Shown here: one piece after another, positions 17,856-60,860 of the stretch
Numbering within the stretch: the stretch's first letter is position 1
How the letters are laid out: every line of letters starts with the position of its first letter
Source: a virus
Virus record (IMG/VR): IMGVR_UViG_3300026097_001223
Span: 62,001 to 126,000 of that record
Reading direction: 5' to 3' (one strand)
DNA: 64,000 nt
Position numbers and translations under genes: made by a program
The notes under the pieces: model-generated
Seen by the model: the letters and a program-made list of their open reading frames with translations, nothing else
The model's database searches: none
Told to the model about the DNA's origin: nothing

Positions 17856-18886
17856 TCAGCCCAGCCTGTTAGATAGTCTTCTATTCTTATGCCTTTTAAT
17901 TGATCTTGTCTTGCAATATCCTGCTTTGCATGCTCTAGTATGCTATAGTGTGGTATGCTGTCTACGCTGTGATCGAGATAGTGTATTGCATGCACTGGGT
18001 TTGTGTTTAACACTTCTGCATACATATCTGTGGTCATTACTCCTGGTCGATAGTAATCGGGTTCTTCGATGCTTTTTGCTAGATAAGGAATATCATTGTT
18101 ATCGAGCCAATCAAGAGTTTGATCAATGTAGCGAATGTTGAGATTGCTGATCATTACACTGGCACTGAGATTAGATGTTATTTGTTTATAGTAGGCAACA
18201 TTGTCTGAAAAGTCTGCCCATTTTACTGGATATCGCATGTATTCATATACCGGGCCAATACCATCCATGCTGATGCAAAGATTCAAGTTAGTAAATTGTT
18301 TCAGCAGGTTTTCTTGGTCTTGGTTAAGCTTAACCGAGGCATTCGTAACCATAGTAACAAATAGATCAGTACGTCCGGATTGTGTCAGTTTGTGCAACAC
18401 TCGCCAGTTTTGTTTTTCCAGCATTGGTTCTCCGCCTACCATGCTGAGGTATGCTATATTGTCCCAGTCTATTCCTACATCATTGATATCCTGCGTCATG
18501 TACTTTACTGGCAATCCTTCCGTGAACTGCCAGGCTGTGCTTGCTTCTGGTCCACATGTTACGCAAAGACCGTTGCAGAGATTACTGGTATACAGTTTTA
18601 ACATGTAGGTAGTTGTGTTGCCATCCACAGCATCTTCTGCTATTTTTTCTATATCTTTGTCTAACAACCAATCCATTGTGCTGTTGTGTGTTTGTCTTTC
18701 ACTGACAGCACCACGATCTTCTGCTCGCCAACAGGTGGCACATGCAGGATGACGTGCTCCATTTTTTATGCTATCCTGTACACTTGCTCGACTTGTGCCA
18801 CGAGGCCATCTACAGCATCCAATATTGTCGAAGGTCTGTCCGTCGGTTTCATAACAGTGAAAAGGAATAACGCAAAAAACATCCAT
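17843..18886 (-). CDS. Radical SAM protein 3, N-terminal auxiliary cysteines, late-type leaderless start
   Basis: A 347-residue minus-strand radical-SAM protein. The core CxxxCxxC is C104-C108-C111 (CNGLCVTC), the SAM motif is VGGEPMLE, and the N-terminal auxiliary set is C24-C25 with C49 and C52. On the minus strand its ATG is preceded by TAAATA and a 5-nt GACGC gap, the same layout as four virion genes in this window. Late, leaderless expression is therefore expected, and with it a possible role on virion or late host components. Start choice is supported by this promoter. Confidence 0.86.
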   Translation of the reverse strand: MDVFCVIPFHCYETDGQTFDNIGCCRWPRGTSRASVQDSIKNGARHPACATCWRAEDRGAVSERQTHNSTMDWLLDKDIEKIAEDAVDGNTTTYMLKLYTSNLCNGLCVTCGPEASTAWQFTEGLPVKYMTQDINDVGIDWDNIAYLSMVGGEPMLEKQNWRVLHKLTQSGRTDLFVTMVTNASVKLNQDQENLLKQFTNLNLCISMDGIGPVYEYMRYPVKWADFSDNVAYYKQITSNLSASVMISNLNIRYIDQTLDWLDNNDIPYLAKSIEEPDYYRPGVMTTDMYAEVLNTNPVHAIHYLDHSVDSIPHYSILEHAKQDIARQDQLKGIRIEDYLTGWADYFK

Positions 18887-32618: not shown

Positions 32619-33033
32619 CGTAGAACGAGCTAGAACACGTTCAGAAAAAATAGATGTAATTGAAAAAGCACTGATTGCTAGCAGATTAGGAAGTGCTAGT
32701 GCTCAGTGTTTTTTATACAATTGTTATCTCAGTTACAATCCAAATTATGTGTACTATATTAGACAAGTGCCTACAACCGCAAATCTATCGCATCAACCGA
32801 ATCCTTTTGTAAAATTTTGGGCACTGTGCGAAGCATTACACACTAGAAGCATTGTAGGAAAAAATATACAGATTGCAATCCTTGATACTAGTTCTAACTT
32901 TGACAGTCGTGTGTGGAATCAGATTTGTCGTGAAGTACTGCTCAAAAAGCTTGGACAAGGACTTACAACAAATATGTTAAATGCAGTACTGAAAAACACT
33001 GAGTGGGAAATACCAACAAAGCATGAACGTTGA
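32596..33033 (+). CDS. Stand-alone DNA ligase N-terminal domain-like protein
   Basis: A 145-residue protein that aligns by eye with the N-terminal DNA-binding domain of ATP-dependent DNA ligases such as T4 gp30: a helix (RTRSEKIDVIEKAL), an aromatic segment (YLSYNPNYVYYIRQVP), then WALCEALHTRSIVGKNIQIAI followed by WNQICREVLLKKLGQGL. There is no KxDG adenylation motif, so it cannot be a ligase by itself. The GTG start at 32596 is the first in-frame start and overlaps the small membrane gene. It overlaps radical-SAM gene 4 by 11 nt. Confidence 0.62.
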   Translation: MALDWVNDVERARTRSEKIDVIEKALIASRLGSASAQCFLYNCYLSYNPNYVYYIRQVPTTANLSHQPNPFVKFWALCEALHTRSIVGKNIQIAILDTSSNFDSRVWNQICREVLLKKLGQGLTTNMLNAVLKNTEWEIPTKHER

Positions 33034-33889
33034 TGCTGTTAAATGGTTACATGTAGAAGCTAGCAGTAGGTGTAATGCATGGTGTCCCGCATGCCCGAGA
33101 AACGTCAATGGATTTGGACTACGCCCTGGACTTGTGGAAACTGATCTTGATATAGACTCATTTGTAGAAACATTAAATGCATTGCCTAACCTTGAAGCTG
33201 TGCAGTTCTGCGGCAACGACGGTGACCCGATAGCACATAGAAATTTTATCGATTTAATTGATTTAATCCCAGACGATGTTTTTGTACAGATACACACCAA
33301 TGGCAGTTTACGTAACCGAGCTTGGTGGAAACAGCTTGCACAATCTCTGGAGTATCGCCGACATGAAATCTATTTTGGCATAGATGGACTAAAAGACACT
33401 CATAGGATATATAGACAAAACACTGATTGGAATAAAATTATAGCCAATGCCAGCGAGTTTATCAACAACAAAGGCACTGCTGTTTGGCAATTTATACCAT
33501 TCAAGCATAACCAGCATCAATTCATGGAATGCTACAGGCTCAGCCAACAGTTAGGGTTCCGTGATTTCAAGGTCGTGAAAACCTTTAGGTATCACAAAAG
33601 TCATGCAAGAGATTTCCGCACCGGCGAAGAGTACATGTTAGAGCCCAGTGATTTTTTTCTGGATATGTGGAATTCTAACAAGCCTGCAGAAGCACAGGAT
33701 TGTATGCATCTTTCTATACCGAGTGTGTATTTAGATGCACAAGGTCGAATCAGCGCATGCTGTTATCTAGCAGACAGCATTAATTTTAAAAATACCACAG
33801 AACTGTTTGCAAAATTGCAGATTGACAACAATGTAATTGCTAGTACGTCAACCTGTCAGTTCTGGTGTAGCGGATTAAGCGATAAATAA
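33023..33889 (+). CDS. Radical SAM protein 4, SPASM-like cysteines C-terminal
   Basis: A 288-residue radical-SAM protein. The core motif is at the very N-terminus, C17-C21-C24 (CNAWCPAC), followed by FCGNDGDP in the position of GGEP. The auxiliary cysteines are C-terminal: DCMHLS, then GRISACCYL and a closing TCQFWC. This canonical order contrasts with the other five radical-SAM proteins here, which have their CC...CxxC set N-terminal to the core. The start overlaps the ligase-domain gene. The substrate is unknown. Confidence 0.84.
   Translation: MNVDAVKWLHVEASSRCNAWCPACPRNVNGFGLRPGLVETDLDIDSFVETLNALPNLEAVQFCGNDGDPIAHRNFIDLIDLIPDDVFVQIHTNGSLRNRAWWKQLAQSLEYRRHEIYFGIDGLKDTHRIYRQNTDWNKIIANASEFINNKGTAVWQFIPFKHNQHQFMECYRLSQQLGFRDFKVVKTFRYHKSHARDFRTGEEYMLEPSDFFLDMWNSNKPAEAQDCMHLSIPSVYLDAQGRISACCYLADSINFKNTTELFAKLQIDNNVIASTSTCQFWCSGLSDK
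33883..33888 (+). promoter_or_regulatory. T4-type late promoter, 5 nt before ATG
   Basis: GATAAATA, then AACTT, then the ATG of the 33894 gene. It overlaps the stop of radical-SAM gene 4. Confidence 0.68.
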
Positions 33890-37768: not shown

Positions 37769-38161
37769 ATGCACGTAATATTTGGAAAAGAAAAGGATCA
37801 ACTCGAAGAAAGTGATGTTGATATTGAAACACTCAAAACACAGTACAGTATAGTGCCGCTAGACCGTGTACGGTACAGTGACCAGGGAGAAGTTATTCAA
37901 AGTTGGTGTTTATTAAGTGGAGATAATACCAGCACTATGGAAGAAGCTCCTCATTTGCCTCGTTTAATTGAATTGCACGAAAACATGATGCAAAACTATT
38001 ACCGTCGAGAATGGAAGTTCTGCGAAGACGCAGCAGAAAATCTAAAAGGCAGGTTCGGCGGAGAGTTGGACAGCTTTTATCAACATTTTTTAAATCGTGT
38101 ACGCAACTACATAGACAACGAACCAGACGCAAACTGGGACGGAGTTATCAACAACTATTGA
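37769..38161 (+). CDS. Hypothetical protein (130 aa)
   Basis: A 130-residue acidic protein with an AAGGAG ribosome binding site, starting 23 nt from the divergent phosphoesterase. It has segments MHVIFGKEKDQLEES and RREWKFCEDAAENLKG, helical near the C-terminus. It resembles small conserved proteins of T4-like marine phages but has no assigned function. Its end overlaps the convergent glycosyltransferase-like gene by 7 nt. Confidence 0.72.
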   Translation: MHVIFGKEKDQLEESDVDIETLKTQYSIVPLDRVRYSDQGEVIQSWCLLSGDNTSTMEEAPHLPRLIELHENMMQNYYRREWKFCEDAAENLKGRFGGELDSFYQHFLNRVRNYIDNEPDANWDGVINNY

Positions 38162-39372
38162 TACCACAGCAGTGGATTTGTCGGAATGTAATTTTTACAC
38201 AGATCCGCTGCTGTTGACAGTGGCACAGGATCATGATTGCTTACGCTCAAATTTAGCTGGCTTTTGTCAAAGCAAGGTAGTTGTCTTTTAGACCAAGCTG
38301 AATGACTAGCAGCTCGCAAATTTTGATTCAGCTCATTGGTTACAGTTTCTAAAAATTCAGTGCTGAAAAAACGTCTTTTGTTGTATTCAGCTACAGCAAA
38401 GATGTTGTCGCTGTGACGCATAATGTTGCTGTTCTTTGCCTGCTCCATGGCGTTTACAATTGCACTCATTCTCATCACTGGATCTTCAATTTCATCATAG
38501 CCTTCGTCAATCCATCGTCCAAATGTTTGAAACCCATAGTCTCTGAGAACTTGCAAACTGCCGGGCCCGGCCATGAGAATAAACGGCTGACAACACGCAA
38601 TTGGTCTTAGTATTTTTTCTGTAAGCATTATTCGCTTTTGATCGGCTACAGTTTCTAGCACAACATCAAACAAACTGGATCTAACATCACTAGCACAGTA
38701 TGTGGCACTGCCAGCAGATTCTGCTGTGTTCGGTTCAAACGCAAATTCTGCAGAACTATACTTGCTATAGTGAGTGTCGCTGTCATATGGATTAAACCTT
38801 GTTCTAGTGCTAGAACACACAGCACTGTTGTTTAACAGTTCTAAAAACTTCAGTCTATACTGTCTGGATCCGGTCCAAGCTCTGCAATACACATTGAACA
38901 AATATTTTATTCTTCTCGGCTGTTTAACCACGGATGGATCTACTTCAGCATATCGATACCAATCTCGAGCAATCACAGCATGACTCCACCAATATGCAGT
39001 GCTGAATCTTTTGCGATACTGTTCTACTTGGTCACTGTTTATTTCACTGTGCAATAGTATTTTCTTTTTGTAAATGTTTGCCCAGGTATCAAAATCCAAA
39101 TTACATTCTTGCAAATAAACATGCAAGGCAGGGTCAAAATTTTCATGTAGGTAATCTTGCTGTGCATCTGCACTATACCAGTCAAATTGGAGAGGTTCCT
39201 GGTCGTGACAAATCACAATTGGCTTTATAATTGTATCATAGGGTTGCAAATCACGCAAAGGCCATAAATTGCTTTGATTTTTGGACCCATGCGGATAAAA
39301 ACGATAAATTAAAGCATTACCGTCGAATTGGTCGTCTATGTAATGATACAAACTGTCAAGAGGAATTGTCAT
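38155..39372 (-). CDS. Glycosyltransferase-like protein, family member 2 of 3
   Basis: A 405-residue minus-strand protein sharing the C-terminal signature of the 10284 and 57740 products: LTEKILRPIACCQPFILMAG, then YGFQTF and a DEGYD-x(n)-R segment. The N-terminal half contains CHDQEPLQFDW and an arginine-rich central segment. Glycosyltransferase is the best guess, but catalytic residues cannot be confirmed. Its ATG is one base from the divergent GTG of the sugar dehydrogenase (CAT-T-GTG), which suggests co-acquisition as a carbohydrate module. Confidence 0.68.
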   Translation of the reverse strand: MTIPLDSLYHYIDDQFDGNALIYRFYPHGSKNQSNLWPLRDLQPYDTIIKPIVICHDQEPLQFDWYSADAQQDYLHENFDPALHVYLQECNLDFDTWANIYKKKILLHSEINSDQVEQYRKRFSTAYWWSHAVIARDWYRYAEVDPSVVKQPRRIKYLFNVYCRAWTGSRQYRLKFLELLNNSAVCSSTRTRFNPYDSDTHYSKYSSAEFAFEPNTAESAGSATYCASDVRSSLFDVVLETVADQKRIMLTEKILRPIACCQPFILMAGPGSLQVLRDYGFQTFGRWIDEGYDEIEDPVMRMSAIVNAMEQAKNSNIMRHSDNIFAVAEYNKRRFFSTEFLETVTNELNQNLRAASHSAWSKRQLPCFDKSQLNLSVSNHDPVPLSTAADLCKNYIPTNPLLWYQ

Positions 39373-39373
39373 T

Positions 39374-40612
39374 GTGAATATTGGTTTTATTGGTCTCGGT
39401 AAACTAGGCCTAGATTGCGCAGAAGTGTTTGCACAACACTACGAAACACGTGGATATGATATCGCACCACGTACAAGCGATACAGTTATTGTATGCGAGA
39501 TTGACGAAGTAGTCAATAAAAGTGACTGGATATTTATCGCTGTTCCAACTCCCCACGAAGAAGGTTACGACGGCAGTGTGCCCAGCTCGCACATGGAACC
39601 AAAAGACTTTGGACATGATGCTGTAATCAGTGCTATTGATGCAGTTAACAAGCATGCAAACAGTGCAAAAAACATCGTGCTTATCAGTACAGTGTTGCCA
39701 GGAACCACGAGACGCAAATTTGCTAGCCGATTAAACAGTGATCACACATTCTTGTATAATCCCTACTTGATTGCAATGGGCAGTGTGAAATGGGACATGA
39801 CCAATCCAGAAATGGTAATGATTGGCAGCGAATCAGGCGATGATCCAGCAATGCACTCATTGATTGAAATCTACAAAAAAATGATGACAAACGATCCTCG
39901 TTATGTAACAGGCACCTGGGACGAGTGCGAAGCAATTAAAATTTTCTATAACACGTTTATTAGTGCCAAAGTCGGACTTGCTAACATGATTCAGGACTTT
40001 GCATTACGCATTGGCAATATTGATGTTGACGTAGTAACTGACGCACTCGCTAACAGTACCATGCGTATCATGGGACCAAAGTACATGACAGCAGGCATGG
40101 GCGATGCTGGTGCTTGTCATCCTCGTGACAATATTGCCCTGCGTTGGTTAGCAGAAAAATATGACATTGGTTACGATTTATTTGACACAATTATGCATGC
40201 TCGCGAGATACAGGCAAAGAACCTAGCTGAATATCTCATTGACATGCGTAAAGGCGACATGCCTATTGTTATCCATGGCAAGGCGTATAAACCAGATGTA
40301 GAATACTGCATCGGTAGCTACAGCACATTGATAGGTTATTATGTAGAGCAAGCTGGTGTTGATGTTGTGTATGTTGATCCTCTGGCCGACGACACAGAAA
40401 ATGTTGTTGACAGCGTGAACGAGCCTTGTGTGGTATTACTAGCACACAACAGAGGTATTACCTATGGGTATACTGGCACAGAAGACGAAGATCCTTTCTA
40501 CTTCGACATTCCAGCTGGTAGTATTATTGTGGATCCTTGGAGAAAAACTCCGTTAGACTTTAACAGCAACTATGAAGTGATCCATTATGGTAACACACGA
40601 CCAAATTATTGA
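39374..40612 (+). CDS. UDP-glucose/GDP-mannose dehydrogenase family protein
   Basis: A 412-residue nucleotide-sugar dehydrogenase, which would oxidise a sugar nucleotide twice to a uronic acid with NAD+. The N-terminal Rossmann motif is GLGKLG (7-12), followed by IFIAVPTP, then the hinge STVLPGTT. The catalytic Cys is C248 in GACHPRDN, and the C-terminal domain contains HGKAYKPDV. The GTG start with an AGAGGA ribosome binding site lies between divergent genes. It could make uronic-acid sugars for virion or host-surface glycans, together with the glycosyltransferase-like gene next door. Confidence 0.88.
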   Translation: MNIGFIGLGKLGLDCAEVFAQHYETRGYDIAPRTSDTVIVCEIDEVVNKSDWIFIAVPTPHEEGYDGSVPSSHMEPKDFGHDAVISAIDAVNKHANSAKNIVLISTVLPGTTRRKFASRLNSDHTFLYNPYLIAMGSVKWDMTNPEMVMIGSESGDDPAMHSLIEIYKKMMTNDPRYVTGTWDECEAIKIFYNTFISAKVGLANMIQDFALRIGNIDVDVVTDALANSTMRIMGPKYMTAGMGDAGACHPRDNIALRWLAEKYDIGYDLFDTIMHAREIQAKNLAEYLIDMRKGDMPIVIHGKAYKPDVEYCIGSYSTLIGYYVEQAGVDVVYVDPLADDTENVVDSVNEPCVVLLAHNRGITYGYTGTEDEDPFYFDIPAGSIIVDPWRKTPLDFNSNYEVIHYGNTRPNY

Positions 40613-41102
40613 TCCTTGGTGGACTCTAGCAGACCTAGAGTCCTTGGATTACATCAATGAACCTTTCAATGATGCAGAGAGTCTTGCACGTTGGAGAAAG
40701 CTAGGATATACACAAACCAAGTTTACCGGTGACATGTATGACATGCGGAATCCAAAACCGTTGTGGATAGACGGATTCAAAGACTATTTTCCCTACGATC
40801 ATTTTAGTTGGAGCCTGTATAAAATGGGACCCGGCACCACTTTACCATGTCACGGTGACACCTACAAACGTTTCCGAAATCTACATGGCATAGAAGATTT
40901 AAACCGCATTGTACGCAGTGTAGTGTTTTTGGACGACTGGCAAAGCGGGCACTATTTTGAAATTGACAGTCAGCCATTGGTAAATTGGTATAAAGGACAA
41001 ATTGTTACCTGGACAGGGGACACACTTCATCTAGCTGCTAACGTTGGCATGACTCCTAGATACACTCTTCAGCTTACAGGTGTGCGAAATGAAACTGCCT
41101 AA
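40587..41102 (+). CDS. 2OG-Fe(II) oxygenase/aspartyl-hydroxylase-like protein
   Basis: A 171-residue double-stranded beta-helix protein. Iron ligands are H89-x-D91 (PCHGD) and H148 (GDTLHLAAN), and R158 fits the 2-oxoglutarate-binding arginine. The order resembles aspartyl/asparaginyl beta-hydroxylase-like cupins. It overlaps the sugar dehydrogenase by 26 nt and the amidinotransferase by 14 nt, so the three form one coupled module. Its substrate may be a peptide or a small molecule. Confidence 0.72.
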   Translation: MVTHDQIIDPWWTLADLESLDYINEPFNDAESLARWRKLGYTQTKFTGDMYDMRNPKPLWIDGFKDYFPYDHFSWSLYKMGPGTTLPCHGDTYKRFRNLHGIEDLNRIVRSVVFLDDWQSGHYFEIDSQPLVNWYKGQIVTWTGDTLHLAANVGMTPRYTLQLTGVRNETA

Positions 41103-42015
41103 GGTGTACTCAGCTAACGAATGGGCACCGCTGGAAAGCATTGTGGTAGGCAGTGCACTGGGTGCTTGTTGGCCCGATCAAGATCCTGTGTTTCAGTTGG
41201 AAAAAGATCGCACCCTGTGGAAAAAATCACCCTTGCCCAGCGGCCCAGTTGCACCTCATGTGATTGAAGAAAGTGAAGAAGACCTCGATGCTCTTGCTGA
41301 TATACTGGAAAAGCAAGGCGTAACAGTGCATAGGCCGCAACACCGGGACTTTGAAAAAACCAATGGCATGTACAATTATTGTCCTAGAGACCGACTGTTA
41401 GTAGCCGATGCAACAGTTGTAGACTGTGCCATGATGTACCCTAGTAGAGATCAAGAAATAGAAACATTAAGTCATGTTCTTGAAGATGTGCCAGTGATTA
41501 AAATGCCAAGAGATTCAGGCATGGTGTTGGATGCAGCAAACGTTTGTCGGTTAGGCGACACCTGGTTGTTCCTTGAAAGCAACAGTGGCAATCAAGCTGC
41601 ATATCAATGGTTATGCGAGCAGTTTCCAGAAAAAAACATTGAAAAAGTAAACTTTTATGCTGGTGTGCACATCGACAGTACTATTTGTGCTATTAGCGAT
41701 AGCACAGTGTTGGTTAACTCACAGCGTGTAAAGCTCGATCAGTTACCCGAAGCACTGTCTGATTGGAATATCATATGGGTCGATGATGTTGTAGCACAAG
41801 ACTTTTATGAATACCCTTATGCCAGCAAATGGATTGCTATGAATGTGTTAAGCGTTGACCCAGGTACAGTTGTGGTGGATCGCAAACAAGATCGCTTAAT
41901 AAATACATTAGAAAGAAATAATTTCACAGTGATCCCCCATGAGCTGAGACACAGTAGAACACTAGGCGGAGGGTTCCATTGTGTAACCCTGGACCTAAAG
42001 AGGCGACATGTCTGA
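41089..42015 (+). CDS. Amidinotransferase-family protein (glycine amidinotransferase-like)
   Basis: A 308-residue protein of the amidinotransferase/arginine-deiminase superfamily. Start ATG 41089 is preferred to GTG 41080. Conserved features: an N-terminal EWAPLESIVVGSA, the DAANVCRLGD segment, the catalytic-histidine motif GVHIDSTIC (H194) and the catalytic-cysteine motif GGGFHCVTLDLKR (C298). Enzymes of this group transfer the amidino group of arginine to amines, or deiminate it. An amidine-bearing sugar or amino acid would be a reason to lie next to a sugar dehydrogenase and oxygenase. Its end overlaps the tail-fibre start by 8 nt. Confidence 0.82.
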   Translation: MKLPKVYSANEWAPLESIVVGSALGACWPDQDPVFQLEKDRTLWKKSPLPSGPVAPHVIEESEEDLDALADILEKQGVTVHRPQHRDFEKTNGMYNYCPRDRLLVADATVVDCAMMYPSRDQEIETLSHVLEDVPVIKMPRDSGMVLDAANVCRLGDTWLFLESNSGNQAAYQWLCEQFPEKNIEKVNFYAGVHIDSTICAISDSTVLVNSQRVKLDQLPEALSDWNIIWVDDVVAQDFYEYPYASKWIAMNVLSVDPGTVVVDRKQDRLINTLERNNFTVIPHELRHSRTLGGGFHCVTLDLKRRHV

Positions 42016-44005
42016 CCAAGAAGCATTAAAAAAACTATTAGATTCTGAAGAAGTACAACAACAGATTCGTATTGCAATCAATCAGATTGTAAATCAGCAC
42101 GTGAGCACTTCGCTGTCGCAAACAGACATTGATACTGCTGTTGATAGACACTTGGCAAAAAGAATACGTTTTAACAAAGATACTGTACTGGATAGTTTTC
42201 CTGGTATACAGGATAGCAGCACTAAACCAGAACTAACCATCTTGCCAGACAATGTTGTTGTTGAATCTACATTGATTGCAAAAAATATTGAATCAATGGA
42301 AACAGCTAAACTTGAAAATCTAGAAGTAAACGGAGAATTAAAGTTCAACGGCGATTCATTGGTCAGCACCGGGAACAATAGCAAACTGCTGGATTATATT
42401 ACAAAATCGATCACTGCCGGCATAGATCAAACAGTTGTATCTGGTATAACTGACTCAGTAAAAAACAGTATAACAAACGAAGTAATAACCAAAGCCAGAC
42501 TGGAATACAATAAAACAGTAAAAGATATAGTCGAACAAGAAATACCTTTGTTGCTCAATACTGCGGAAGTTGAGCAGAAAATTGATACACTGAGCAACCA
42601 AATTATAAATCAGCTGGTTAACCGTACGGTGGAATCCACTGATATTGCTAACCTAGTAAAGCAAAATGTCGACCGTGCAGTTCGCATAAATCGAGAATCT
42701 CTTAAAACTTCATTCCCAGGTATTGATGACAATGCTGACAGTGTAGAGCTTACACTGTTACCTGACACTGTTGTTGCAGAAAACAGTTTGGTAGCCAAAA
42801 ATCTAGAAATAATAGAACATGCTAAAGTACAGGATTTAGAAATTGCTGGCAATATCCTGTTCAATGGCAATGCTTTTGTTAATCGCGGTGACAATCGTGC
42901 ACTGATTGAAGAAATAACTCGCAGTCTCACAGCCGGCTTAGATAAAAAAATCCTAGACAGTATCAGTACCGAAGTAAAAGAAAAAATCAATCAACGTGTG
43001 CTGGAGAAAGGACAACTGGAGTTCAGTGCAACCATTCGCGATGTAGTTGAGCAAGAGCTTCCAGCCTTTTTAGCCGGTGACGCGGTTGATGCTAAAGTGG
43101 ATGCACTGCTACCCCAAATTCTCAACCAGAACATTGAACGCACAATTAAATCTGCAGATGTACCGAAATTGGTAAATCAAGCAGTCACACGCACAATGAC
43201 ACTGAACAAGAGTCAATTAAACAAGATGTATCCGGGCATCGAAGATCAAAGTGAAGAAGTCAGTTTAACTCTGATGCCAGGTGTGGTTGTTAATGAAAAT
43301 GACTTTGTAAGTAAAAACATAGAAGTAGTGGGTGATCTATCTGCTAAGACCGCTACTGTGAACAGTTTAACAGTGGTAGACAATTTGAATGTTCAAGGCG
43401 TGGCCTGGGACGGAATCACTGAGCAGATTACAGCCGCAGTAAAAACAAGAGTACAAGATCAGTGGCAAGACACTGTAACTGACAAAGTTACAGCACAGAT
43501 TGCTAAAACAGGCATTAACATCAATAGTGCAATCATAGACGGTCAGCCGTTGATAAACAATGGACGATTGCATGACACTGTGGTTGAAACTGCGCCTCTA
43601 AGAAAGCTTGAAGTAAACGGCACTGCAAATATTAACAATGTTACAATAACAAAAACTCGTCTTGGCATTGGCACAAACAGTCCAGAACGCAGTCTCAGTG
43701 TGTGGGACGAAGAAGTAAGTGTTGTTGTTGGCAAGCACAAGACTAATACTGCCTTCGTTGGTACCAACAGAGATCAGGAGCTACAAATTGGCACAAACAA
43801 CAAAGGACAGTTGATTGTTAAACAAGACGGCACTGTTAGTGTGCCCAAGTTAGTTGTCGGCAAAAATCAAATTGGACACACTGACACTGTGCCAAATTGG
43901 AGCGGTACCAAAGGTGATATTATGTTTAACAGTAATCCAGGAAACGGACAATCATTTATCTGGATCTGTCTTGGCGCATACAGATGGCAAGGATTTGGCG
44001 AATGA
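42008..44005 (+). CDS. Tail fibre protein with three 172-residue repeats
   Basis: A 665-residue protein built on a tandem repeat: PGI(Q/D/E)D begins at residues 65, 237 and 409, exactly 172 residues apart, each followed by a (S/E)LT(I/L)(L/M)P...V(V/A)(V/E)..(S/D).(V/I).KN(I/L)E stretch. Between anchors are coiled-coil-like segments (TAGIDQTVV, TAGLDKKIL). After residue 560 a different domain follows, with a GIGTNSPE motif, ending in a WICLGAYRWQGFGE-type tip that resembles tail-fibre C-termini. It is probably a trimeric fibre. Its last codon overlaps the next ATG. Confidence 0.82.
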   Translation: MSDQEALKKLLDSEEVQQQIRIAINQIVNQHVSTSLSQTDIDTAVDRHLAKRIRFNKDTVLDSFPGIQDSSTKPELTILPDNVVVESTLIAKNIESMETAKLENLEVNGELKFNGDSLVSTGNNSKLLDYITKSITAGIDQTVVSGITDSVKNSITNEVITKARLEYNKTVKDIVEQEIPLLLNTAEVEQKIDTLSNQIINQLVNRTVESTDIANLVKQNVDRAVRINRESLKTSFPGIDDNADSVELTLLPDTVVAENSLVAKNLEIIEHAKVQDLEIAGNILFNGNAFVNRGDNRALIEEITRSLTAGLDKKILDSISTEVKEKINQRVLEKGQLEFSATIRDVVEQELPAFLAGDAVDAKVDALLPQILNQNIERTIKSADVPKLVNQAVTRTMTLNKSQLNKMYPGIEDQSEEVSLTLMPGVVVNENDFVSKNIEVVGDLSAKTATVNSLTVVDNLNVQGVAWDGITEQITAAVKTRVQDQWQDTVTDKVTAQIAKTGININSAIIDGQPLINNGRLHDTVVETAPLRKLEVNGTANINNVTITKTRLGIGTNSPERSLSVWDEEVSVVVGKHKTNTAFVGTNRDQELQIGTNNKGQLIVKQDGTVSVPKLVVGKNQIGHTDTVPNWSGTKGDIMFNSNPGNGQSFIWICLGAYRWQGFGE

Positions 44006-44571
44006 TCACTCGTTCAGCATGGATACTAGACGACAACAGCATCAAGCGTAAGAGCTATGATTTTGATGACATGCGAGCAGTGGGCCCATTGTGGGGAGGA
44101 CCGGCTACTTTTCAAGAATGGTACACTGACAACATTGTTAGCATGGATTTGCCCACTAACAAACAGTTGATAGCAAGAAAAATGCACAGCAACACCAATC
44201 TTCATGTACCCAAAGATCAAAATGCTGGCCTTGATCGCCCTGGCGGTGTTAGGCTGTTCGAACACGACTACAAAGAAACTTTTATACATCAAGATCAACT
44301 GTGTTGTATGATGCTGATAGCTGACTTTCACGACATCTTGTTGCTCATGCATTTCAAAGTTGCACCTGACATCACAGGAGATAAACTGCACGATCGCAAT
44401 GAAAAAATGTATATCAGAGAACTTAAACACGCAATAGAATCATATCCAGAAACACAGTTTGTTGCAATCGACGTCGGTGATGATGTAGATGAAAGTTTAC
44501 TAGAACTTGATAATTTCACTTGCGATACCTACAAAAATGTGTTAGAGTTGTTGTTAGACAACGACGACTAA
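44002..44571 (+). CDS. Hypothetical protein, co-expressed with tail fibre (189 aa)
   Basis: I start at the ATG at 44002, which overlaps the fibre stop codon in ATGA fashion; a longer frame starting at 43984 is possible but less likely. The protein is acidic at the C-terminus with no recognised motif. The first residues (MITRSAWILDDNSIKRKSYD) and a NTNLHVPKDQ segment are distinctive. Coupling to the tail-fibre gene makes a fibre chaperone or attachment role plausible. Confidence 0.7.
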   Translation: MITRSAWILDDNSIKRKSYDFDDMRAVGPLWGGPATFQEWYTDNIVSMDLPTNKQLIARKMHSNTNLHVPKDQNAGLDRPGGVRLFEHDYKETFIHQDQLCCMMLIADFHDILLLMHFKVAPDITGDKLHDRNEKMYIRELKHAIESYPETQFVAIDVGDDVDESLLELDNFTCDTYKNVLELLLDNDD

Positions 44572-44581
44572 GGATAGGTAT

Positions 44582-45658
44582 ATGCACCCACGTGTAGGGT
44601 TCTGTTGCAAGTATTTGCATCCAGATCAAACTCAATCTAAAAAGCTGTTAGAAGAAATTCAGCGCCCATTAACTGAACGGTGTACAACTGTGGCCTGGCT
44701 TAATCGTCAAACTCGCGAAGATGCAGAACAGCGTCTTTGGGATCTCATGGTTCATAACACACAGGCATGTTTGAATCTGGTAAACTATGTAGGAGGATTA
44801 CCAAATGAGCTTCGAATGGTTCGACTGGGTAGTAATCAGTTGCCTATGTACACTGAGCCTAGCTGGCGCTATTTTTGGCAGTTACCTAGTGTACGTGAGT
44901 ATTGCGAAAAAGCATTTGCTCGTGTCGGTGACGCCGCTCGTAGACAGAATGTTAGGATCAGCTTTCATCCTGGGCAGTTTTGTGTGCTTGCTAGCGATAG
45001 TGATAGTATTGTAGAACGCAGTATAGAGGAGTTTGAATATCATGCCGATATGGCCAGGTGGATGGGTTACGGTCGTTCCTTCCAGGACTTTAAAATCAAC
45101 GTACACATATCGGGTCGAAAAGGTCCACAAGGCATCAAAGAGGCTCTCCCAAGACTCAGCACCGAAGCACGAAACTGCATCACAATCGAAAACGATGAAT
45201 GCGGATGGGGATTGGATGCCAGCCTCGAATTGGCTAAAGATTTGGCGCTCGTACTAGACATACATCATCATTGGGTAAGAGAAGGCGAATATATTGATGT
45301 GGATGACGATAGGGTTAAGCGTGTTATTGACAGCTGGCGTGGTGTACGCCCTGCATGTCATTACAGCGTGTCAAGGGAAGACTACTTGGATGGGCATTCA
45401 AGCACGGTCCGGCCGGATATGGCTGCACTGCTTGCTGCTGGATACAAAAAACAAAAACTGAGAGCGCACAGTGATTTCTATTGGAATCATGCTGTGAGCG
45501 AATGGGCTGCTACGTTCAGTGAATACTTTGATATTCAGTGCGAAAGCAAGATGAAAAATCTAGCCAGTCACCCGTTTGCTAAAGACTATGTGATGACAGC
45601 GGAATCAACGTGCGAAAGTCTTCGTCGCGAATCCGATCTAGCTCTTTGTTATAGTTAA
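44582..45658 (+). CDS. uvsE: UV damage endonuclease UvsE (UVDE)
   Basis: A 358-residue UV-damage endonuclease of the UvdE/UvsE TIM-barrel family, which nicks DNA 5' of photolesions. Recognisable are MHPRVGFCCKY, the LPNELRMVRLGSN segment, and metal-ligand stretches ISFHPGQFCVLAS, IENDECGWG, LDIHHHW and RAHSDFYWNH. It fits a phage exposed to sunlight. The 3' end overlaps the convergent radical-SAM gene 5 by 80 nt. A hydrophobic alternate-frame ORF (44805-45014) is embedded in it. Confidence 0.92.
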   Translation: MHPRVGFCCKYLHPDQTQSKKLLEEIQRPLTERCTTVAWLNRQTREDAEQRLWDLMVHNTQACLNLVNYVGGLPNELRMVRLGSNQLPMYTEPSWRYFWQLPSVREYCEKAFARVGDAARRQNVRISFHPGQFCVLASDSDSIVERSIEEFEYHADMARWMGYGRSFQDFKINVHISGRKGPQGIKEALPRLSTEARNCITIENDECGWGLDASLELAKDLALVLDIHHHWVREGEYIDVDDDRVKRVIDSWRGVRPACHYSVSREDYLDGHSSTVRPDMAALLAAGYKKQKLRAHSDFYWNHAVSEWAATFSEYFDIQCESKMKNLASHPFAKDYVMTAESTCESLRRESDLALCYS

Positions 45659-46724
45659 CCTGTGTTTGCCACAGCGCAGGGTCAAACTTGTGCTGTGCAA
45701 TCTGCTTCCGAAGCTGTTCAAGCCATACACGGCTATCCTCAAAGCTTTCAACAGCAATAGTTTGATCTAAATTTTCTAGTACCATGGGTTTAAGATCGTC
45801 GGGCCAATTAACTGGATTCATAAACTCGGGCATCCACACAGATTTTGCAGTTTGCTTACATATATGTCCTCGGGCATGTTTTTCATGGCGTATGTCTGAT
45901 ATGTATTTTTGTAAAGGACCTAGATGCAATAGGTTGAGATTACTGACAGTGGTATTAAATACCACACTTTTTCCTACTTGAACAATCTTCTTGATATTTT
46001 TATCAACTTCTGTCCAGTTAGTGCCGTGTCTTATTATTTCGGCTTGTTCGCCTACAGCATCCAAACTGATTGCCCACGCTAGATAATATCCTAGCTTTTC
46101 TGACATTTCCTGCCAAAAGTCGTCAAACACACTGCCGTTTGTGATCATAACTATACGGCGATCCTTTTCTTTGGCGTTGGACAGTTGATACACAAGGTTT
46201 TTTACCTCGTCTATCAAGGTGGGTTCTCCACCGGCAAGTGTTACAATTTGCAGTTGTTCAATGTTGTCAGCAATCCAGGTTTGATTTTTGCTATTATTGA
46301 ATACCAACTTGCTGTTTACAGGAGGCTGTAGATTTTTTATATAGTCGCTTTGTTTTAAATCAGCTAACCAGGCACTGCTTGCACCTGCATAGCAACTACG
46401 ACACTTGAAATTACAAAGATTGTTACTGCGATAATCAAACTCAGTAATATTAGTTTCTGTATAAAAGTCAGGATGGTCCTCTAGACCTTTTTGTCTTGTA
46501 CTAGAAAACCCATTTTCTTCCTGTTTTTTGCAAAATCTGCAGTCGTTATCAACCTCGCCACGCAAAAACTTTTGTTGTAATTGCTCTAGTTCATCGCTAG
46601 CCAACCATTCGTCGATACTGCCAGTAAATCGTTTTGCGTAGCTACAGCAAGGTTTTACCCCATCGTGCTCGCTGTAAACACTGCGGAACGGCATCGGGCA
46701 ATACCATTGAGAATCGGACATCAT
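45579..46724 (-). CDS. Radical SAM protein 5, N-terminal auxiliary cysteines
   Basis: A 381-residue minus-strand radical-SAM protein. The core is C104-C108-C111 (CNFKCRSC), the SAM motif LAGGEPTLI, and the N-terminal auxiliary set is C26-C27 with C62 and C65 (CRFC). The C-terminal 26 residues lie in the 80-nt overlap with uvsE. It is the second gene of a two-gene minus-strand operon (ATGA overlap with the 46721 gene), which has a TAAATA element 24 nt before its first gene, so late expression is likely. Confidence 0.85.
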   Translation of the reverse strand: MMSDSQWYCPMPFRSVYSEHDGVKPCCSYAKRFTGSIDEWLASDELEQLQQKFLRGEVDNDCRFCKKQEENGFSSTRQKGLEDHPDFYTETNITEFDYRSNNLCNFKCRSCYAGASSAWLADLKQSDYIKNLQPPVNSKLVFNNSKNQTWIADNIEQLQIVTLAGGEPTLIDEVKNLVYQLSNAKEKDRRIVMITNGSVFDDFWQEMSEKLGYYLAWAISLDAVGEQAEIIRHGTNWTEVDKNIKKIVQVGKSVVFNTTVSNLNLLHLGPLQKYISDIRHEKHARGHICKQTAKSVWMPEFMNPVNWPDDLKPMVLENLDQTIAVESFEDSRVWLEQLRKQIAQHKFDPALWQTQVNYNKELDRIRDEDFRTLIPLSSHSL

Positions 46725-49690: not shown

Positions 49691-49917
49691 CACCCCAAGA
49701 AATATTTGAATATCGACTGAAATGGAAGCCTGGCACTTGTGTAGCTGTGCACAGTGACTTGGAAAATCGTGCTAAAACTTGGTGCAATAAAAACGTGCCC
49801 AAGCATCAGTGGACCACAGTAGAATACACAGATGTGTATGAGCATACCTACTGTTTTGAGTCTGTTGAGGCTGCAGAACAGTTTAACATAGAGTTTCAAG
49901 ATTGGATAACAAACTAA
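49687..49917 (+). CDS. Small hypothetical protein (76 aa)
   Basis: A 76-residue protein with N-terminal MTPQEIFEYRLKWKPGTCV and a C-terminal FESVEAAEQFNIEFQDW helix. The type is one I associate with T4-like marine phages. Its last codons overlap the TTG start of radical-SAM 6 by 16 nt. Confidence 0.7.
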   Translation: MTPQEIFEYRLKWKPGTCVAVHSDLENRAKTWCNKNVPKHQWTTVEYTDVYEHTYCFESVEAAEQFNIEFQDWITN

Positions 49918-51104
49918 GTTGCCCTTGGGCTGAACAAGGTTTAGCATTGCACAACACCGGCAGGGCTCTGCTGTGTTGTCACAGTCGTAGCTATTTAGAA
50001 GACGACAACGGTGATTGGATCTATTGGCACAGTCACACTCTTGATGATGCGTGGAACAGCAAAACACGTCATGAAATAATTGACAGTTTGGCACAAGGCA
50101 TTGAGCATCCAAACTGTGATGCATGTTGGCAAGAAGAACGTGTTGGCCGTAAAAGTCGTCGTATTGTAGCCAAGGAACAATTTGATTTGCCGCCGGCTGA
50201 CTCACCAAAACTAGTCGATCTTAAACTAGGCAACACCTGTAATCTTGCATGTACCATGTGCTGGCCTGAAGTAAGTTCAAAATGGCTTGCTGACTATTAT
50301 CATGTATACGAAGATCCAAATATTATCTACAGTGACTACAAACAACGCTGGGCTAGTATACAAAAAAGTTATGACCGAGAAAATCACCAGCTTTGGGACG
50401 ATTTAAAGCGCATTTTGCCAAATGCCGAACACTTGGATATTTTTGGTGCTGAGCCATTTTTGTTGGATAGACTATGGGATATACTAAAATGGAATGTAGA
50501 ATTAGGGCATAGCAAAAACCAAACTTTGCATATTAATACAAATACTACCATCTGGCGGGATGATTATGTTAATATCCTATCACATTATAAAAAAGTATCC
50601 GTGGATCTAAGCATAGACGCTACTGATCACTTATTTGAATACATACGTTATGGAGCTGAATGGCAGATTGTTCAAAAAAATATACAAAAATGGGCCGCTA
50701 TAAAAAAAACAAATAAAAATATTAATGTAGCACTGTGCGTGACTGTAACAAACACTAATGTGTTTGATCTAGATAATATATACTTAAAACTAAGAGAATA
50801 TGGTCTTGCCTTCTTCCTTAACATTGTTCATATGCCTGTGCATCAGTGTATTCGGAGTATGCCTAGCCAGCTGAAAACAATAATTAATAATAAATTACGA
50901 GATAATATTGACAACCTGGGATACAAACGTGAAGTAGAAAGTTTGTTAAATTTTATGATGCTGGACGACCCAGATCAAGAAGCCAATTGGCAAGAATGGT
51001 TGCGAAGCACATATGAGTTGGAAAAAAGAAGAGGCAATAGCTTGCGTAAGGCCGCTCCAGAATTTATCTCAGTGCTCGACCGACTGGGTTACCATCTTCC
51101 TTGA
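49902..51104 (+). CDS. Radical SAM protein 6, N-terminal auxiliary cysteines
   Basis: A 400-residue radical-SAM protein. The core is C113-C117-C120 (CNLACTMC), the SAM-binding motif is FGAEPFLL (GAEP instead of GGEP), and N-terminal auxiliary cysteines are C25-C26 with C72 and C75 (CDAC). The start is a TTG at 49902 inside the previous gene; the N-terminal auxiliary motif requires a start near here. The codon mix is more AT-rich in the C-terminal half. It converges on the 51064 gene, overlapping by 41 nt. Confidence 0.82.
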   Translation: MDNKLSCPWAEQGLALHNTGRALLCCHSRSYLEDDNGDWIYWHSHTLDDAWNSKTRHEIIDSLAQGIEHPNCDACWQEERVGRKSRRIVAKEQFDLPPADSPKLVDLKLGNTCNLACTMCWPEVSSKWLADYYHVYEDPNIIYSDYKQRWASIQKSYDRENHQLWDDLKRILPNAEHLDIFGAEPFLLDRLWDILKWNVELGHSKNQTLHINTNTTIWRDDYVNILSHYKKVSVDLSIDATDHLFEYIRYGAEWQIVQKNIQKWAAIKKTNKNINVALCVTVTNTNVFDLDNIYLKLREYGLAFFLNIVHMPVHQCIRSMPSQLKTIINNKLRDNIDNLGYKREVESLLNFMMLDDPDQEANWQEWLRSTYELEKRRGNSLRKAAPEFISVLDRLGYHLP

Positions 51105-55001: not shown

Positions 55002-55431
55002 CAGAACTGTAGCGGCACTTTTTGCAGCTATAGCAGTTTACTTTTTTGTTTACAGCTTTCAATATCAACTAGGCAGTGCCAGTAGAATGGGCCCTGCCTA
55101 TTTTCCTATTATGACCAGTGTAAGTTTGTTTGCTGTGGCTGTGTGCATATGGCTGTTTGAAAACGATCATGCACCAGCCAGATTTGAATGGGACGTTTTC
55201 TCCGCAGGAGTGCCCATTGGTGCTATTTTGGTATTTGCAGTCAATCTTGAATTTCTCGGTTTTGCAATAACCACAATGTTGGTAACTCTGCTTACTGCTG
55301 TGAGCAAAGAAAACAGAAACCTACCACTCACACTGGGCACAGGCATTTTTCTAGTTGGCCTAGGTTGGGGAGTTTTTGTAAAGTTTCTTGATGTGTATCT
55401 GCCCATGTGGCCTGCTTTTTTATGGAATTAA
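54985..55431 (+). CDS. tctB: Tripartite tricarboxylate transporter TctB-like small membrane protein
   Basis: A 148-residue protein of the TctB family, the small membrane subunit of TTT secondary transporters. Four transmembrane helices can be placed (AALFAAIAVYFFVYSF, ITTMLVTLL, GIFLVGLGWGVF and the helix at 75-92), and the typical LGSASRMGPAYFPI segment follows helix 1. The ATG at 54985 is one option; 54991 is another. It is immediately upstream of tctA and overlaps it by 10 nt, as in bacterial tct operons. There is no tctC nearby. Confidence 0.88.
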   Translation: MKMTRNRTVAALFAAIAVYFFVYSFQYQLGSASRMGPAYFPIMTSVSLFAVAVCIWLFENDHAPARFEWDVFSAGVPIGAILVFAVNLEFLGFAITTMLVTLLTAVSKENRNLPLTLGTGIFLVGLGWGVFVKFLDVYLPMWPAFLWN

Positions 55432-56918
55432 TTGACAACTTATATCTAGGATTTGCAACTGCACTCAGTGTTGAAAATATTTTCTACTGTTTTGTGGGTG
55501 TGTTTTTAGGCACCGCTGTGGGTGTTTTGCCTGGCCTCGGACCGCTGGCTGCAATAACCATGCTGTTGCCACTTACATACAGTTTCAATGATCCAAGCAG
55601 TGCTATTATCATGCTTGCTGGCATCTACTATGGGTGTCAGTATGGAGGAAGCACTGCCGCAATTCTAGCAAACATTCCCGGCGAAAGCAGTGCAGTGGTC
55701 ACTGTGGTAGACGGTTATCAAATGACCAAACAGGGTAGAGCTGGCACTGCACTGGTAACAGCGGCACTGAGCAGTTTTTTTGCTGGCACTGTTGCTACAC
55801 TGTTTATTGCTGTTGGTGCACCTGCTCTAGCCGAGGTAGCATTTGCGTTCGGTCCGCCTGACTATTTCAGTCTCATGTTTCTGGGACTTATACTGGCAGT
55901 GGCATTGAGCACAGGCAGTGTGCTAAAAAGTCTAGCAATGGTGATATTTGGTGTACTGATCGGTCTTATTGGCACAGACGTTACCACAGGCGTTGCACGA
56001 TTTGATTGGGGTGTACCAGAACTGTTCGATGGCATTCCATTTGTGGTAATTGCAATGGGACTGTTTGGTTTTGCTGAAATCATGTACAACCTTGAAAATC
56101 CACATGTGCGACAATCACTGAATAATCAACAGCCCACTCTTAGGTTATCTAACAAAGAACTCAGGCGAGCCGCTCCGGCAACAGTTAAAGGCACTGTGGT
56201 CGGTAGCTTTCTTGGACTGTTGCCAGGCAGTGGAGGAATCATTGCTAGCTTTGCTGCCTATGCATTAGAAAAAAGAACCAACAAAAAACATCACAGTGAA
56301 TTTGGTAAAGGCGCAATCGAAGGTGTAGCAGCTCCCGAAAGTGCAAACAATGCTGGCAGTCAAACCAGCTTCATTCCCATGCTGGTATTGGGTATACCTA
56401 CTACTCCTATCATGGCACTGATGATAGCCGCACTCTTAATACACCATGTAGTGCCTGGTCCTCAGATAGTCAGCACCAATCCCGAAGTTTTTTGGGGATT
56501 GATTGCCAGTATGTGGATAGGCAATCTGCTGTTGCTGGTTTTGAATCTGCCGTTGATTGGTATTTGGATACGCATGTTAAATATAAGTTATAATATACTG
56601 TACCCAATTATACTGATATTTGCATGCCTGGGCGTGTATGTGGTCACCAGCAATGTTGTTCATGTATTAATGACCGTTCCTTTTGCAGTGCTGGGTTATC
56701 TGTTTAAAAAATGGGAATGTGAACCCGCGCCATTGATGATGGGATTCATAGTAGGAGCAGCCATGGAAGAACATCTACGCAGGGCCATGACCATCAGCAA
56801 AGGTGATTGGATGGTATTTGTGGAAAGACCTATCAGCGCCACACTGTTGGCTATCGCAACAGCATCTTTGGTTGTTGTGGCAATTTACGTTGCAAGGAGA
56901 GTGCGTGTACATTCGTGA
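55422..56918 (+). CDS. tctA: Tripartite tricarboxylate transporter TctA-like permease
   Basis: A 498-residue, many-helix membrane protein matching TctA. The family signature YYGCQYGGSTAAILANIPGE followed by VVDGYQMTKQGRAGTAL is clear near residues 60-95, and a second GLLPGSGGIIASFAAYAL segment is seen later, with MLVLGIPTTPIMALMIAALL. TctA with TctB imports tricarboxylates or other organic anions captured by a periplasmic TctC. A phage copy might be paired with a host TctC. The start at 55422 overlaps tctB; the GTG at 55407 is less likely. Confidence 0.9.
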   Translation: MELIDNLYLGFATALSVENIFYCFVGVFLGTAVGVLPGLGPLAAITMLLPLTYSFNDPSSAIIMLAGIYYGCQYGGSTAAILANIPGESSAVVTVVDGYQMTKQGRAGTALVTAALSSFFAGTVATLFIAVGAPALAEVAFAFGPPDYFSLMFLGLILAVALSTGSVLKSLAMVIFGVLIGLIGTDVTTGVARFDWGVPELFDGIPFVVIAMGLFGFAEIMYNLENPHVRQSLNNQQPTLRLSNKELRRAAPATVKGTVVGSFLGLLPGSGGIIASFAAYALEKRTNKKHHSEFGKGAIEGVAAPESANNAGSQTSFIPMLVLGIPTTPIMALMIAALLIHHVVPGPQIVSTNPEVFWGLIASMWIGNLLLLVLNLPLIGIWIRMLNISYNILYPIILIFACLGVYVVTSNVVHVLMTVPFAVLGYLFKKWECEPAPLMMGFIVGAAMEEHLRRAMTISKGDWMVFVERPISATLLAIATASLVVVAIYVARRVRVHS

Positions 56919-59249: not shown

Positions 59250-60860
59250 ATGAAAAAATCTATTCTCTCCATTGGCCTATTGGCCGTGTCTCTTTCTACG
59301 TCAGCAGAAACCACTGACATAACAATTTATGTTACTCGAACACCAGTTGAACAAAGCATTGACACCAGGAGTTATACTAGAGCGGACTCTTTAGAACAAC
59401 TGGAACAGTCTCCGGGTATTAATATTGTGCAGAGCGGACCGCGTGGACAAAATACCAGCATGTTTGCACGAGGCACAGAAAGTGACCATACACTGCTTGC
59501 TATCAACGGCATGCCTATCAAAGATCATAGCACTATATCTGGCAGTGATGACATTGGACAACACAGTTTGGCTGGTATTGATCAACTGTTGTTTATACGA
59601 GGTCCAGCCGGTAGCGCCTATGGGCCCAATGCTGTAGGAGGTGCTGTTGACTTTATCAGTCGCGGCACAGGCGACAGTGTATCAGCATCAACTGGTACCT
59701 ATGGTTATAAAAATCTGTATGGCAGTAAACGTTTTGCAAAGGATTCCTTTGCTGGTAGCATTGCTGTTGAAACAGAACGTGCCAATGGCATTGATGTTCA
59801 GGACAACGGTGATCAGGACAGCTACACCAAGAAAAACATAAACCTGTATGGCAGTTGGATGCTGGATCAAGGCGACTTGTACTTGAACTATATCCAGTCA
59901 GACAATAGCAGTGACCTAGATGGATGGAACGAAACCAGTAACTGGCAGTTTGATAACACACAACTTGGCTACGAAACACAAAGTGCTCGGATCGTCTACA
60001 ATCAAGCAAATCATAAACGCATCTATGATACTTCCAGTGTGTATCTCAGCTCTGACGCTAGACTGTTGACTGAAAAAACCTGGAATCAATGGACAGTGAG
60101 CCTAGAGCACAGCAATCATGAGTACGACAGCAACAGTCGAACTGAGCAAGGGGCAGCTGTTGCTTATAATGATCAGTGGCTAAGTGCCGAATTGCGATCC
60201 GATGACACTGAGCTAGGGTCATTTGCCAGCTGGAGACTGGGCGTTTCTCACAGTGGTTTGCGAGCCAGCGTCGCCAACGGATTTAGAACCCCCAGCCTCT
60301 ATGAAGTCTACGGTGATGATTTGTATGTAGAAGAAAACACAGGCCTGCAAGCAGAATATATCACTGCATATGAATTGGGATATAGAAACAGCTGGGTTGA
60401 TACTGCTTTGTTTTTCAACCAAGAAACAGACAGGATCACATACATCACTGATCCAGAGACCTATGTAGGACAGTACACAAACAACATCAAAGACACTGTT
60501 CGTACACACGGAGTTGAAACATCTCTTACCAAAACTGTGGACGATGTTACTGTGAATTACAACTATACCTATACCTGGAGTGATGCAGACAAGCTGAGAC
60601 AGCCAGCTCACATGCACAACCTTGCTCTTTTATATGGCAGTGTAACATATAGTGCACAGTATATAGGATCGCACCTGGACACTGACAGCAACACGTTTAC
60701 TACAGTGAACATGAATGATGTGCTGTTACAGAATTTGTCTTACAAGAAAAAATGGTTCACTGTGACGGTAAATAATATCACTGATCAACAGTATCAACGT
60801 CCAGATGGGTATCAACAATACGGACGCACTATCACATTAAAGGCAGATTATGAATTCTAA
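59250..60860 (+). CDS. btuB: TonB-dependent outer-membrane receptor, BtuB-like
   Basis: A 536-residue protein, shorter than E. coli BtuB (614). Signal peptide residues 1-19, a TonB-box-like ITIYVTRTP, plug motifs LEQSPGINIVQ, RGTESDHTLLAINGMP and RGPAGSAYGPNAVGGAVDFIS, a long beta-barrel, and the terminal Phe of outer-membrane proteins (ADYEF). It should import vitamin B12 across the outer membrane, with energy from host TonB. The ribosome binding site lies in the riboswitch expression platform. The next membrane gene overlaps by 11 nt, so both are under B12 control. Uptake of B12 or receptor replacement (blocking other phages) are both possible. Confidence 0.9.
   Translation: MKKSILSIGLLAVSLSTSAETTDITIYVTRTPVEQSIDTRSYTRADSLEQLEQSPGINIVQSGPRGQNTSMFARGTESDHTLLAINGMPIKDHSTISGSDDIGQHSLAGIDQLLFIRGPAGSAYGPNAVGGAVDFISRGTGDSVSASTGTYGYKNLYGSKRFAKDSFAGSIAVETERANGIDVQDNGDQDSYTKKNINLYGSWMLDQGDLYLNYIQSDNSSDLDGWNETSNWQFDNTQLGYETQSARIVYNQANHKRIYDTSSVYLSSDARLLTEKTWNQWTVSLEHSNHEYDSNSRTEQGAAVAYNDQWLSAELRSDDTELGSFASWRLGVSHSGLRASVANGFRTPSLYEVYGDDLYVEENTGLQAEYITAYELGYRNSWVDTALFFNQETDRITYITDPETYVGQYTNNIKDTVRTHGVETSLTKTVDDVTVNYNYTYTWSDADKLRQPAHMHNLALLYGSVTYSAQYIGSHLDTDSNTFTTVNMNDVLLQNLSYKKKWFTVTVNNITDQQYQRPDGYQQYGRTITLKADYEF

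Follow-up and report, generated by a model that had tools for sequence, protein, structure and literature searches.

The window analysed here, a 64,000-nt stretch of a 182-kb viral record in IMG/VR, comes from a T4-like virus that encodes gp23 and a T4-type terminase. Within it, four conserved enzyme families form one unit joined to a fibre-like gene (Table 1). The genes for a glycosyltransferase (GT)-like protein and a UDP-sugar dehydrogenase (UGDH)-like protein lie head to head with start codons 1 nt apart, and, 9 nt before the GTG at 39374, the probable ribosome-binding site of the latter falls within the opening codons of the oppositely oriented GT gene. Downstream, the UGDH-like gene overlaps the 2-oxoglutarate (2OG) oxygenase gene by 26 nt, and the oxygenase gene overlaps the amidinotransferase gene by 14 nt when counted from the ATG at 41089, or by 23 nt from an upstream GTG at 41080, where the reading frame opens. 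The 26- and 14-nt overlaps reported in an earlier note on this DNA are therefore present, the second on the ATG start, and the fibre gene said to follow immediately is represented by a fibre-like gene that overlaps the amidinotransferase gene by 8 nt.

Table 1 Features of the enzyme cassette and its downstream neighbours (positions in the window)
Feature	Position	Strand	Basis
GT-B-fold glycosyltransferase-like protein, 405 aa	38155..39372	-	AlphaFold/Foldseek
AGAGGA, probable ribosome-binding site of the UGDH-like gene	39359..39364	+	Read from sequence
UDP-sugar dehydrogenase-like protein, 412 aa, GTG start, optional cassette member	39374..40612	+	Pfam, PHROG, PDB profile
Small 2OG-Fe(II) oxygenase-like protein, 171 aa	40587..41102	+	Invariant residues, AlphaFold, Foldseek
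StrB1-type L-arginine:X amidinotransferase, ~309 aa	41089..42015	+	PDB sequence match
Fibre-like virion protein candidate, 665 aa	42008..44005	+	Overlap, internal repeats, synteny
195-aa protein, frequent cassette neighbour	43984..44571	+	Synteny

Sequence and structure comparisons support the identities that had been claimed for all four enzymes. The best structural-database match to the amidinotransferase is StrB1, the L-arginine:inosamine-phosphate amidinotransferase of the streptomycin pathway (PDB 1bwd; E 2e-55, 192 bits), compared with E ~1e-27 and 100 bits for the glycine enzyme AGAT in single-sequence PDB searches. The amidinotransferase profile scores StrB1 at 297 bits and AGAT at 169 bits, with AGAT, HsvA and SxtG falling between 164 and 177 bits. 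Catalytic D151, H197 and C301, together with D104, D199 and R216, are kept in 103–104 of 104 homologues; the catalytic Asp/His/Cys and arginine-binding residues are thus shared with StrB1, and the YA-x-x-H-[VI]-DST loop is similar. Judged by sequence, the window enzyme is far closer to inosamine-phosphate than to glycine amidinotransferases, and its predicted activity is transfer of an amidino group from arginine to an amine. It differs from StrB1 in being ~40 residues shorter and in having no inosamine or cyclitol genes seen alongside. AGAT, HsvA and SxtG have the same fold family and catalytic residues, but the window enzyme has not retained the Asn and Met residues of the AGAT 300-flap, which influence the choice of acceptor (PMC4887976).

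These comparisons bear on whether the locus might serve small-molecule metabolism, with the amidinotransferase and oxygenase producing either ornithine for polyamines or a free guanidino compound, which would aid the infected cell or act as a signal, and with the GT acting separately. An aquatic-virus amidinotransferase is listed as K00613, glycine amidinotransferase, in a single-cell study (PMC8226683), and the creatine-pathway gene GAMT is reported as virus-enriched in a catalogue of ocean auxiliary genes, where creatine synthesis is discussed (PMC11360552). Moreover, bacterial relatives of the amidinotransferase, mostly 35–40% identical, adjoin AMP-binding (adenylation)/carrier proteins and PALP/ornithine-cyclodeaminase-like genes, small-molecule neighbours which suggest that enzymes of this superfamily may use amino acids as acceptors too. 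The exception is a 57% identical relative (L243) on a 4.4-kb MAG contig in which the gene sizes match the viral order. By contrast, the nearness to StrB1 and the altered 300-flap argue against a creatine-type activity, the cassette showed no GAMT-type methyltransferase, and the GT and fibre-like genes are tightly linked to the amidinotransferase gene. Because StrB1 outscores AGAT, a creatine or glycine pathway is not our first choice; creatine metabolism is disfavoured, and we regard small-molecule metabolism in general as quite unlikely.

The UGDH-like protein matches Pfam UDPG_MGDP_dh (8.9e-15), PHROG 9148 (6e-87) and, in a PDB profile search, UGDH itself (1e-26). Its Rossmann and central domains and the retained active-site residues K189, N193, C248 and D252 are those of UDP-glucose 6-dehydrogenase. 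In contrast, the conserved glutamates of the PEFLxEG motif have been replaced in its clade: the motif reads PYLIAMG in 63 of 63 homologues and PYLIAQG in the relative from phage HTVC008M. The protein also falls short of the curated NCBIfam cut-off for NDP-sugDHase (138 versus 189.8 bits) and far below those of the equivalogs. By sequence, then, it is a UGDH relative from a divergent clade. Judged from the PDB alignment, Y131 probably occupies the position equivalent to E161 of human UGDH, a mutant of which traps a thiohemiacetal (PMC3184952). Given this trapping and the loss of the glutamates, the product of the window enzyme may differ from that of UGDH; the dehydrogenase may stop at, or divert, the thiohemiacetal/thioester stage and give a product that is not a plain uronic acid.

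The remaining two enzymes are more readily recognized from structure models and invariant residues. The oxygenase-like protein reaches no Pfam cut-off and has no credible match there, whereas 13 of 46 members of its family, the window protein not among them, match Asp_Arg_Hydrox (PF05118; best 3.7e-4). An HxD...H iron triad (H89-x-D91, H148) and a putative 2OG-binding arginine (R158) are invariant in 115 of 115 homologues. Its AlphaFold model (pLDDT 94.6) is a double-stranded beta-helix that Foldseek matches to P4H, AsqJ and AspH at E ~5e-5; there are 148 PDB matches at E<=0.001, and those listed are mostly 2OG enzymes, the remainder being cupins. Sequence and model together indicate a 2OG-Fe(II) oxygenase-like protein that shares with AspH-type (PF05118) and prolyl-4-hydroxylase enzymes the beta-helix, the triad and an arginine ten residues past the distal histidine, but that has just 171 residues. 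Two other candidate oxygenases gave negative results: CP220 gp085, in a profile comparison, and the HTVC008M gene downstream of UGDH. The 405-aa protein matches no named glycosyltransferase family in Pfam, PHROG or PDB sequences. When its model (pLDDT 86.6) was compared with the PDB by Foldseek, the 50 best matches were nearly all GT-B enzymes, including SdgB, sucrose-phosphate synthase, WaaG and SenB, at E values of 2e-3 to 8e-2, none reaching E<=0.001; the phage glycosyltransferase 9iqz is also among these weak matches. On its modelled fold, we assign it as a divergent GT-B-type glycosyltransferase.

Conservation of gene order, which the earlier note had named as a test of its proposal, is borne out in IMG/VR. 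The oxygenase gene lies directly upstream of the amidinotransferase gene in 77 of 85 amidinotransferase-anchored loci. In the 58 of these loci with enough upstream DNA that remain after removal of near-duplicates, the oxygenase directly precedes the amidinotransferase in 52, a GT lies within 5.5 kb of the amidinotransferase in 53, and the dehydrogenase is present in 43 and absent in 15. From these counts, the core consists of the GT, oxygenase and amidinotransferase, with the dehydrogenase as an optional member. The oxidised sugar proposed earlier consequently stands in part: a UGDH-like gene is present, but sugar oxidation is not core, since the enzyme is optional across loci and belongs to a clade without the canonical glutamates. 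Coding overlaps also recur, commonly of 23 nt between UGDH and oxygenase, 4 nt between oxygenase and amidinotransferase and 8 nt between amidinotransferase and fibre-like genes, and GT and UGDH starts are mostly 0–3 nt apart, sizes that are approximate across loci as starts were taken from the longest reading frame. The occurrence of the same order in dozens of divergent viral contigs shows that the arrangement is not due to chance. Accessory genes vary by locus and include a phosphomannomutase (L025), a second 2OG oxygenase (L001) and a radical SAM enzyme (L043), a variation similar to that of glycan modules. The 195-aa gene, the product of which has no Pfam match, is found in 46 of the 85 amidinotransferase-anchored loci, in which UvdE, a DNA repair enzyme, is likewise a frequent conserved neighbour.

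The fibre-like protein contains tandem copies of a ~170-aa unit, its repeats are long and its C-terminal domain is conserved; relatives measure 340–440 aa. The window protein has no match in Pfam or the PDB, and PHROG matches in the family are scattered and confined to single members, one of them to a baseplate protein. We therefore treat it as a fibre-like candidate on the strength of its repeats, C-terminal domain and context, an assignment that database matches do not confirm. Its link to the enzymes, also claimed earlier, gains support from the genomic data. When IMG/VR was searched with this family, using an alignment itself built from module loci, 73 loci had at least 3 kb of upstream sequence, and the amidinotransferase was within 5.5 kb in 72 and directly upstream in 62; the 195-aa gene was counted in 62, and other syntenic upstream genes were rarer (H130 in 31, MPP in 26). 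The 8-nt overlap between amidinotransferase and fibre-like genes is identical in 18 of 28 such pairs. The converse is weaker: a fibre gene is downstream in 28 of 40 amidinotransferase loci, and ~30% are without one. In one virus, L340, the fibre, 195-aa and UvdE genes are present, and a search of the 103-kb record found no amidinotransferase or GT. The association of cassette and fibre is thus strong but not absolute. We compared the L340 fibre with the others in search of a target residue; it retains essentially all conserved residues and differs at a single conserved column (A562 to S), so no target site on the fibre can be named.

Could these genes be mere neighbours, auxiliary genes of no shared function that have stayed side by side as T4-like genomes were passed down vertically? 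The sample includes many T4-like viruses, with gp23 in 12 of 22 records, so inheritance accounts for part of the synteny, and UvdE and the 195-aa gene count among the conserved neighbours as well. However, the overlaps persist, the accessory enzymes change, the amidinotransferase far exceeds other syntenic genes in its association with the fibre, and an oxygenase–amidinotransferase pair recurs in a different operon, that of the cyanophage S-SCSM2R. We consider simple co-inheritance very unlikely.

A further possibility is that the dehydrogenase, oxygenase, GT and amidinotransferase decorate a hypermodified base of the viral genome. Bacillus phage SP-15, which carries a UGDH, places glucuronate on a modified DNA base. 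The relationship between the SP-15 and window dehydrogenases, the weak match of the GT model to 9iqz and the frequency of UvdE nearby are consistent with such a role. No thymidylate-synthase-family hydroxymethylase (PF00303) was found in the window's virus record, which may be incomplete, and 17 of 21 module-bearing relatives similarly have no gene of this family. Moreover, the cassette adjoins a fibre gene rather than replication genes, and the UGDH is optional. DNA hypermodification is accordingly disfavoured, and we judge it highly improbable.

The main rival to decoration of the fibre is modification of a host surface glycan such as LPS or capsule, which could, for instance, keep progeny or rival phages from adsorbing again; adjacency to the fibre gene would then reflect a shared role at the host surface. 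Within the annotated phage collection, the cultured cyanophage S-SCSM2R is the only phage with a detectable oxygenase–amidinotransferase pair (29% and 33% identity), and there the adjacent genes lie inside a polysaccharide-type operon with GT25, other GTs, an aminotransferase-like gene and a radical SAM gene. This operon is without the divergent GT-B/UGDH/fibre arrangement of the present cassette, and its amidinotransferase is annotated merely as ‘inosamine amidinotransferase’. Related dehydrogenases of phages Bellamy and HTVC008M also sit among glycan-type genes, including a carbamoyltransferase, a NadE-like gene and a methyltransferase; across 22 records, UGDH and the NadE-like gene showed no clear coupling. 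In addition, DegT aminotransferases and epimerases are present in several viruses that carry the module, and modification of a receptor recognized by the fibre would equally yield the association in 72 of 73 loci. Against host-glycan modification stand the tight coding overlap with the fibre gene, the lack of any membrane transferase or flippase seen within the cassette, and a search of the window's virus record that gave no DegT aminotransferase or epimerase match. On balance we think it unlikely.

Our tentatively favoured reading is that the cassette serves T4-like viruses in decorating the virion or a surface, with an acceptor, product and recipient that we infer as follows. The amidinotransferase would move an amidino group from host L-arginine onto a primary amine, which, given its resemblance to StrB1, is probably that of a sugar or cyclitol or of an amino-acid side chain. 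The AspH-like oxygenase could hydroxylate the same precursor or a protein acceptor, and the GT-B enzyme would transfer the finished group; in most members, the dehydrogenase could supply a C6-modified UDP-sugar. The likeliest recipient would be the fibre-like protein, the gene of which overlaps that of the amidinotransferase. Such a fibre would gain positively charged guanidino groups, with altered receptor binding or shielding as a possible consequence. The more specific claim, a post-translational ‘amidination’ of the virus's own fibre in which the cassette draws on host arginine to equip the fibre-like protein with a hydroxylated glycan or side-chain modification carrying a guanidino group, is possible but doubtful. 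An amino sugar made entirely by the phage was also considered and was rejected on the missing DegT and epimerase matches; no amino-sugar aminotransferase was found in the record, which may be incomplete.

Decoration of virion proteins by phage glycosyltransferases has a precedent in mycobacteriophages (Freeman et al. 2023, cited in PMC12619734); that system differs from the present cassette in having neither hydroxylation nor amidination and in targeting the capsid and tail tube instead of a fibre. Within the open-access literature, we found no paper that connects amidinotransferases with glycosyltransferases of phages or with tail fibres, an absence that is not proof of novelty, and for guanidino compounds just the ocean catalogue with its creatine synthesis and an unrelated paper. 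Chemical decoration of a fibre or surface sugar by such enzymes is apparently undescribed so far. If the group is indeed carried on the fibre, this would be virion chemistry of a new type that bears directly on host range and on the choice of receptor. More broadly, viral amidinotransferases booked as K00613 may be modifiers of glycans or proteins rather than creatine-pathway genes. Relatives of the cassette genes occur in hundreds of IMG/VR viral contigs, with at least 575 carrying relatives of the amidinotransferase, at least 571 of the oxygenase and at least 458 of the glycosyltransferase.

In the cassette, the genes for the glycosyltransferase (GT) and the UDP-sugar dehydrogenase-like protein (UGDH) are arranged head to head, with a start-codon spacing of 0–3 nt that is kept in most of 50 loci. 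At 22 loci the amidinotransferase gene is followed by a member of a 245-aa protein family, for which Pfam and phage searches returned no match; UGDH is present in 21 of these 22 loci and was scored absent in none. A unit of ~170 aa, repeated in tandem, adds to the length of the fibre-like protein, whose relatives are 340–440 aa long. The tailspike-like gene lies distant from the fibre-like gene.

StrB1-like amidinotransferases also occur in marine Halieaceae/Luminiphilus and other bacteria (L281, L271, L272 and further bacterial loci), where the neighbouring genes encode an adenylation/carrier protein, PALP and OCD proteins and a phosphopantetheinyl transferase. This gene set possibly represents an undescribed guanidino natural-product locus.

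Elsewhere in the window, the NadE-like protein shares 55% identity with the NadE-like protein encoded near the UGDH gene of cyanophage Bellamy. The six radical SAM genes, at least five of which are related to PHROG 14086, are an unusually high number for a single phage in 64 kb. The same phage window encodes both a TctA transporter and a TonB-dependent-receptor plug protein.

Coordinates of features in the window and of the 245-aa family example (locus L003)
Feature	Position	Remark
Radical SAM	14233-15330	
Radical SAM	16737-17855	
Radical SAM	17843-18886	(-)
Tailspike-like protein	24292-26142	matches several PHROG tail families
Radical SAM	33023-33889	
GT/UGDH head-to-head start codons	39240-39510	starts 0-3 nt apart
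Fibre-like protein	42008-44005	(+)
Radical SAM	45579-46724	(-)
Radical SAM	49902-51104	
TctA tricarboxylate transporter	55407-56918	full-length; Pfam E 2e-149
TonB-dependent-receptor plug protein	59250-60860	
NadE-like, Stf0-sulfotransferase-like and GDSL-like genes	61659-63678	gene ends overlap
245-aa family, example member	L003:8943-9680
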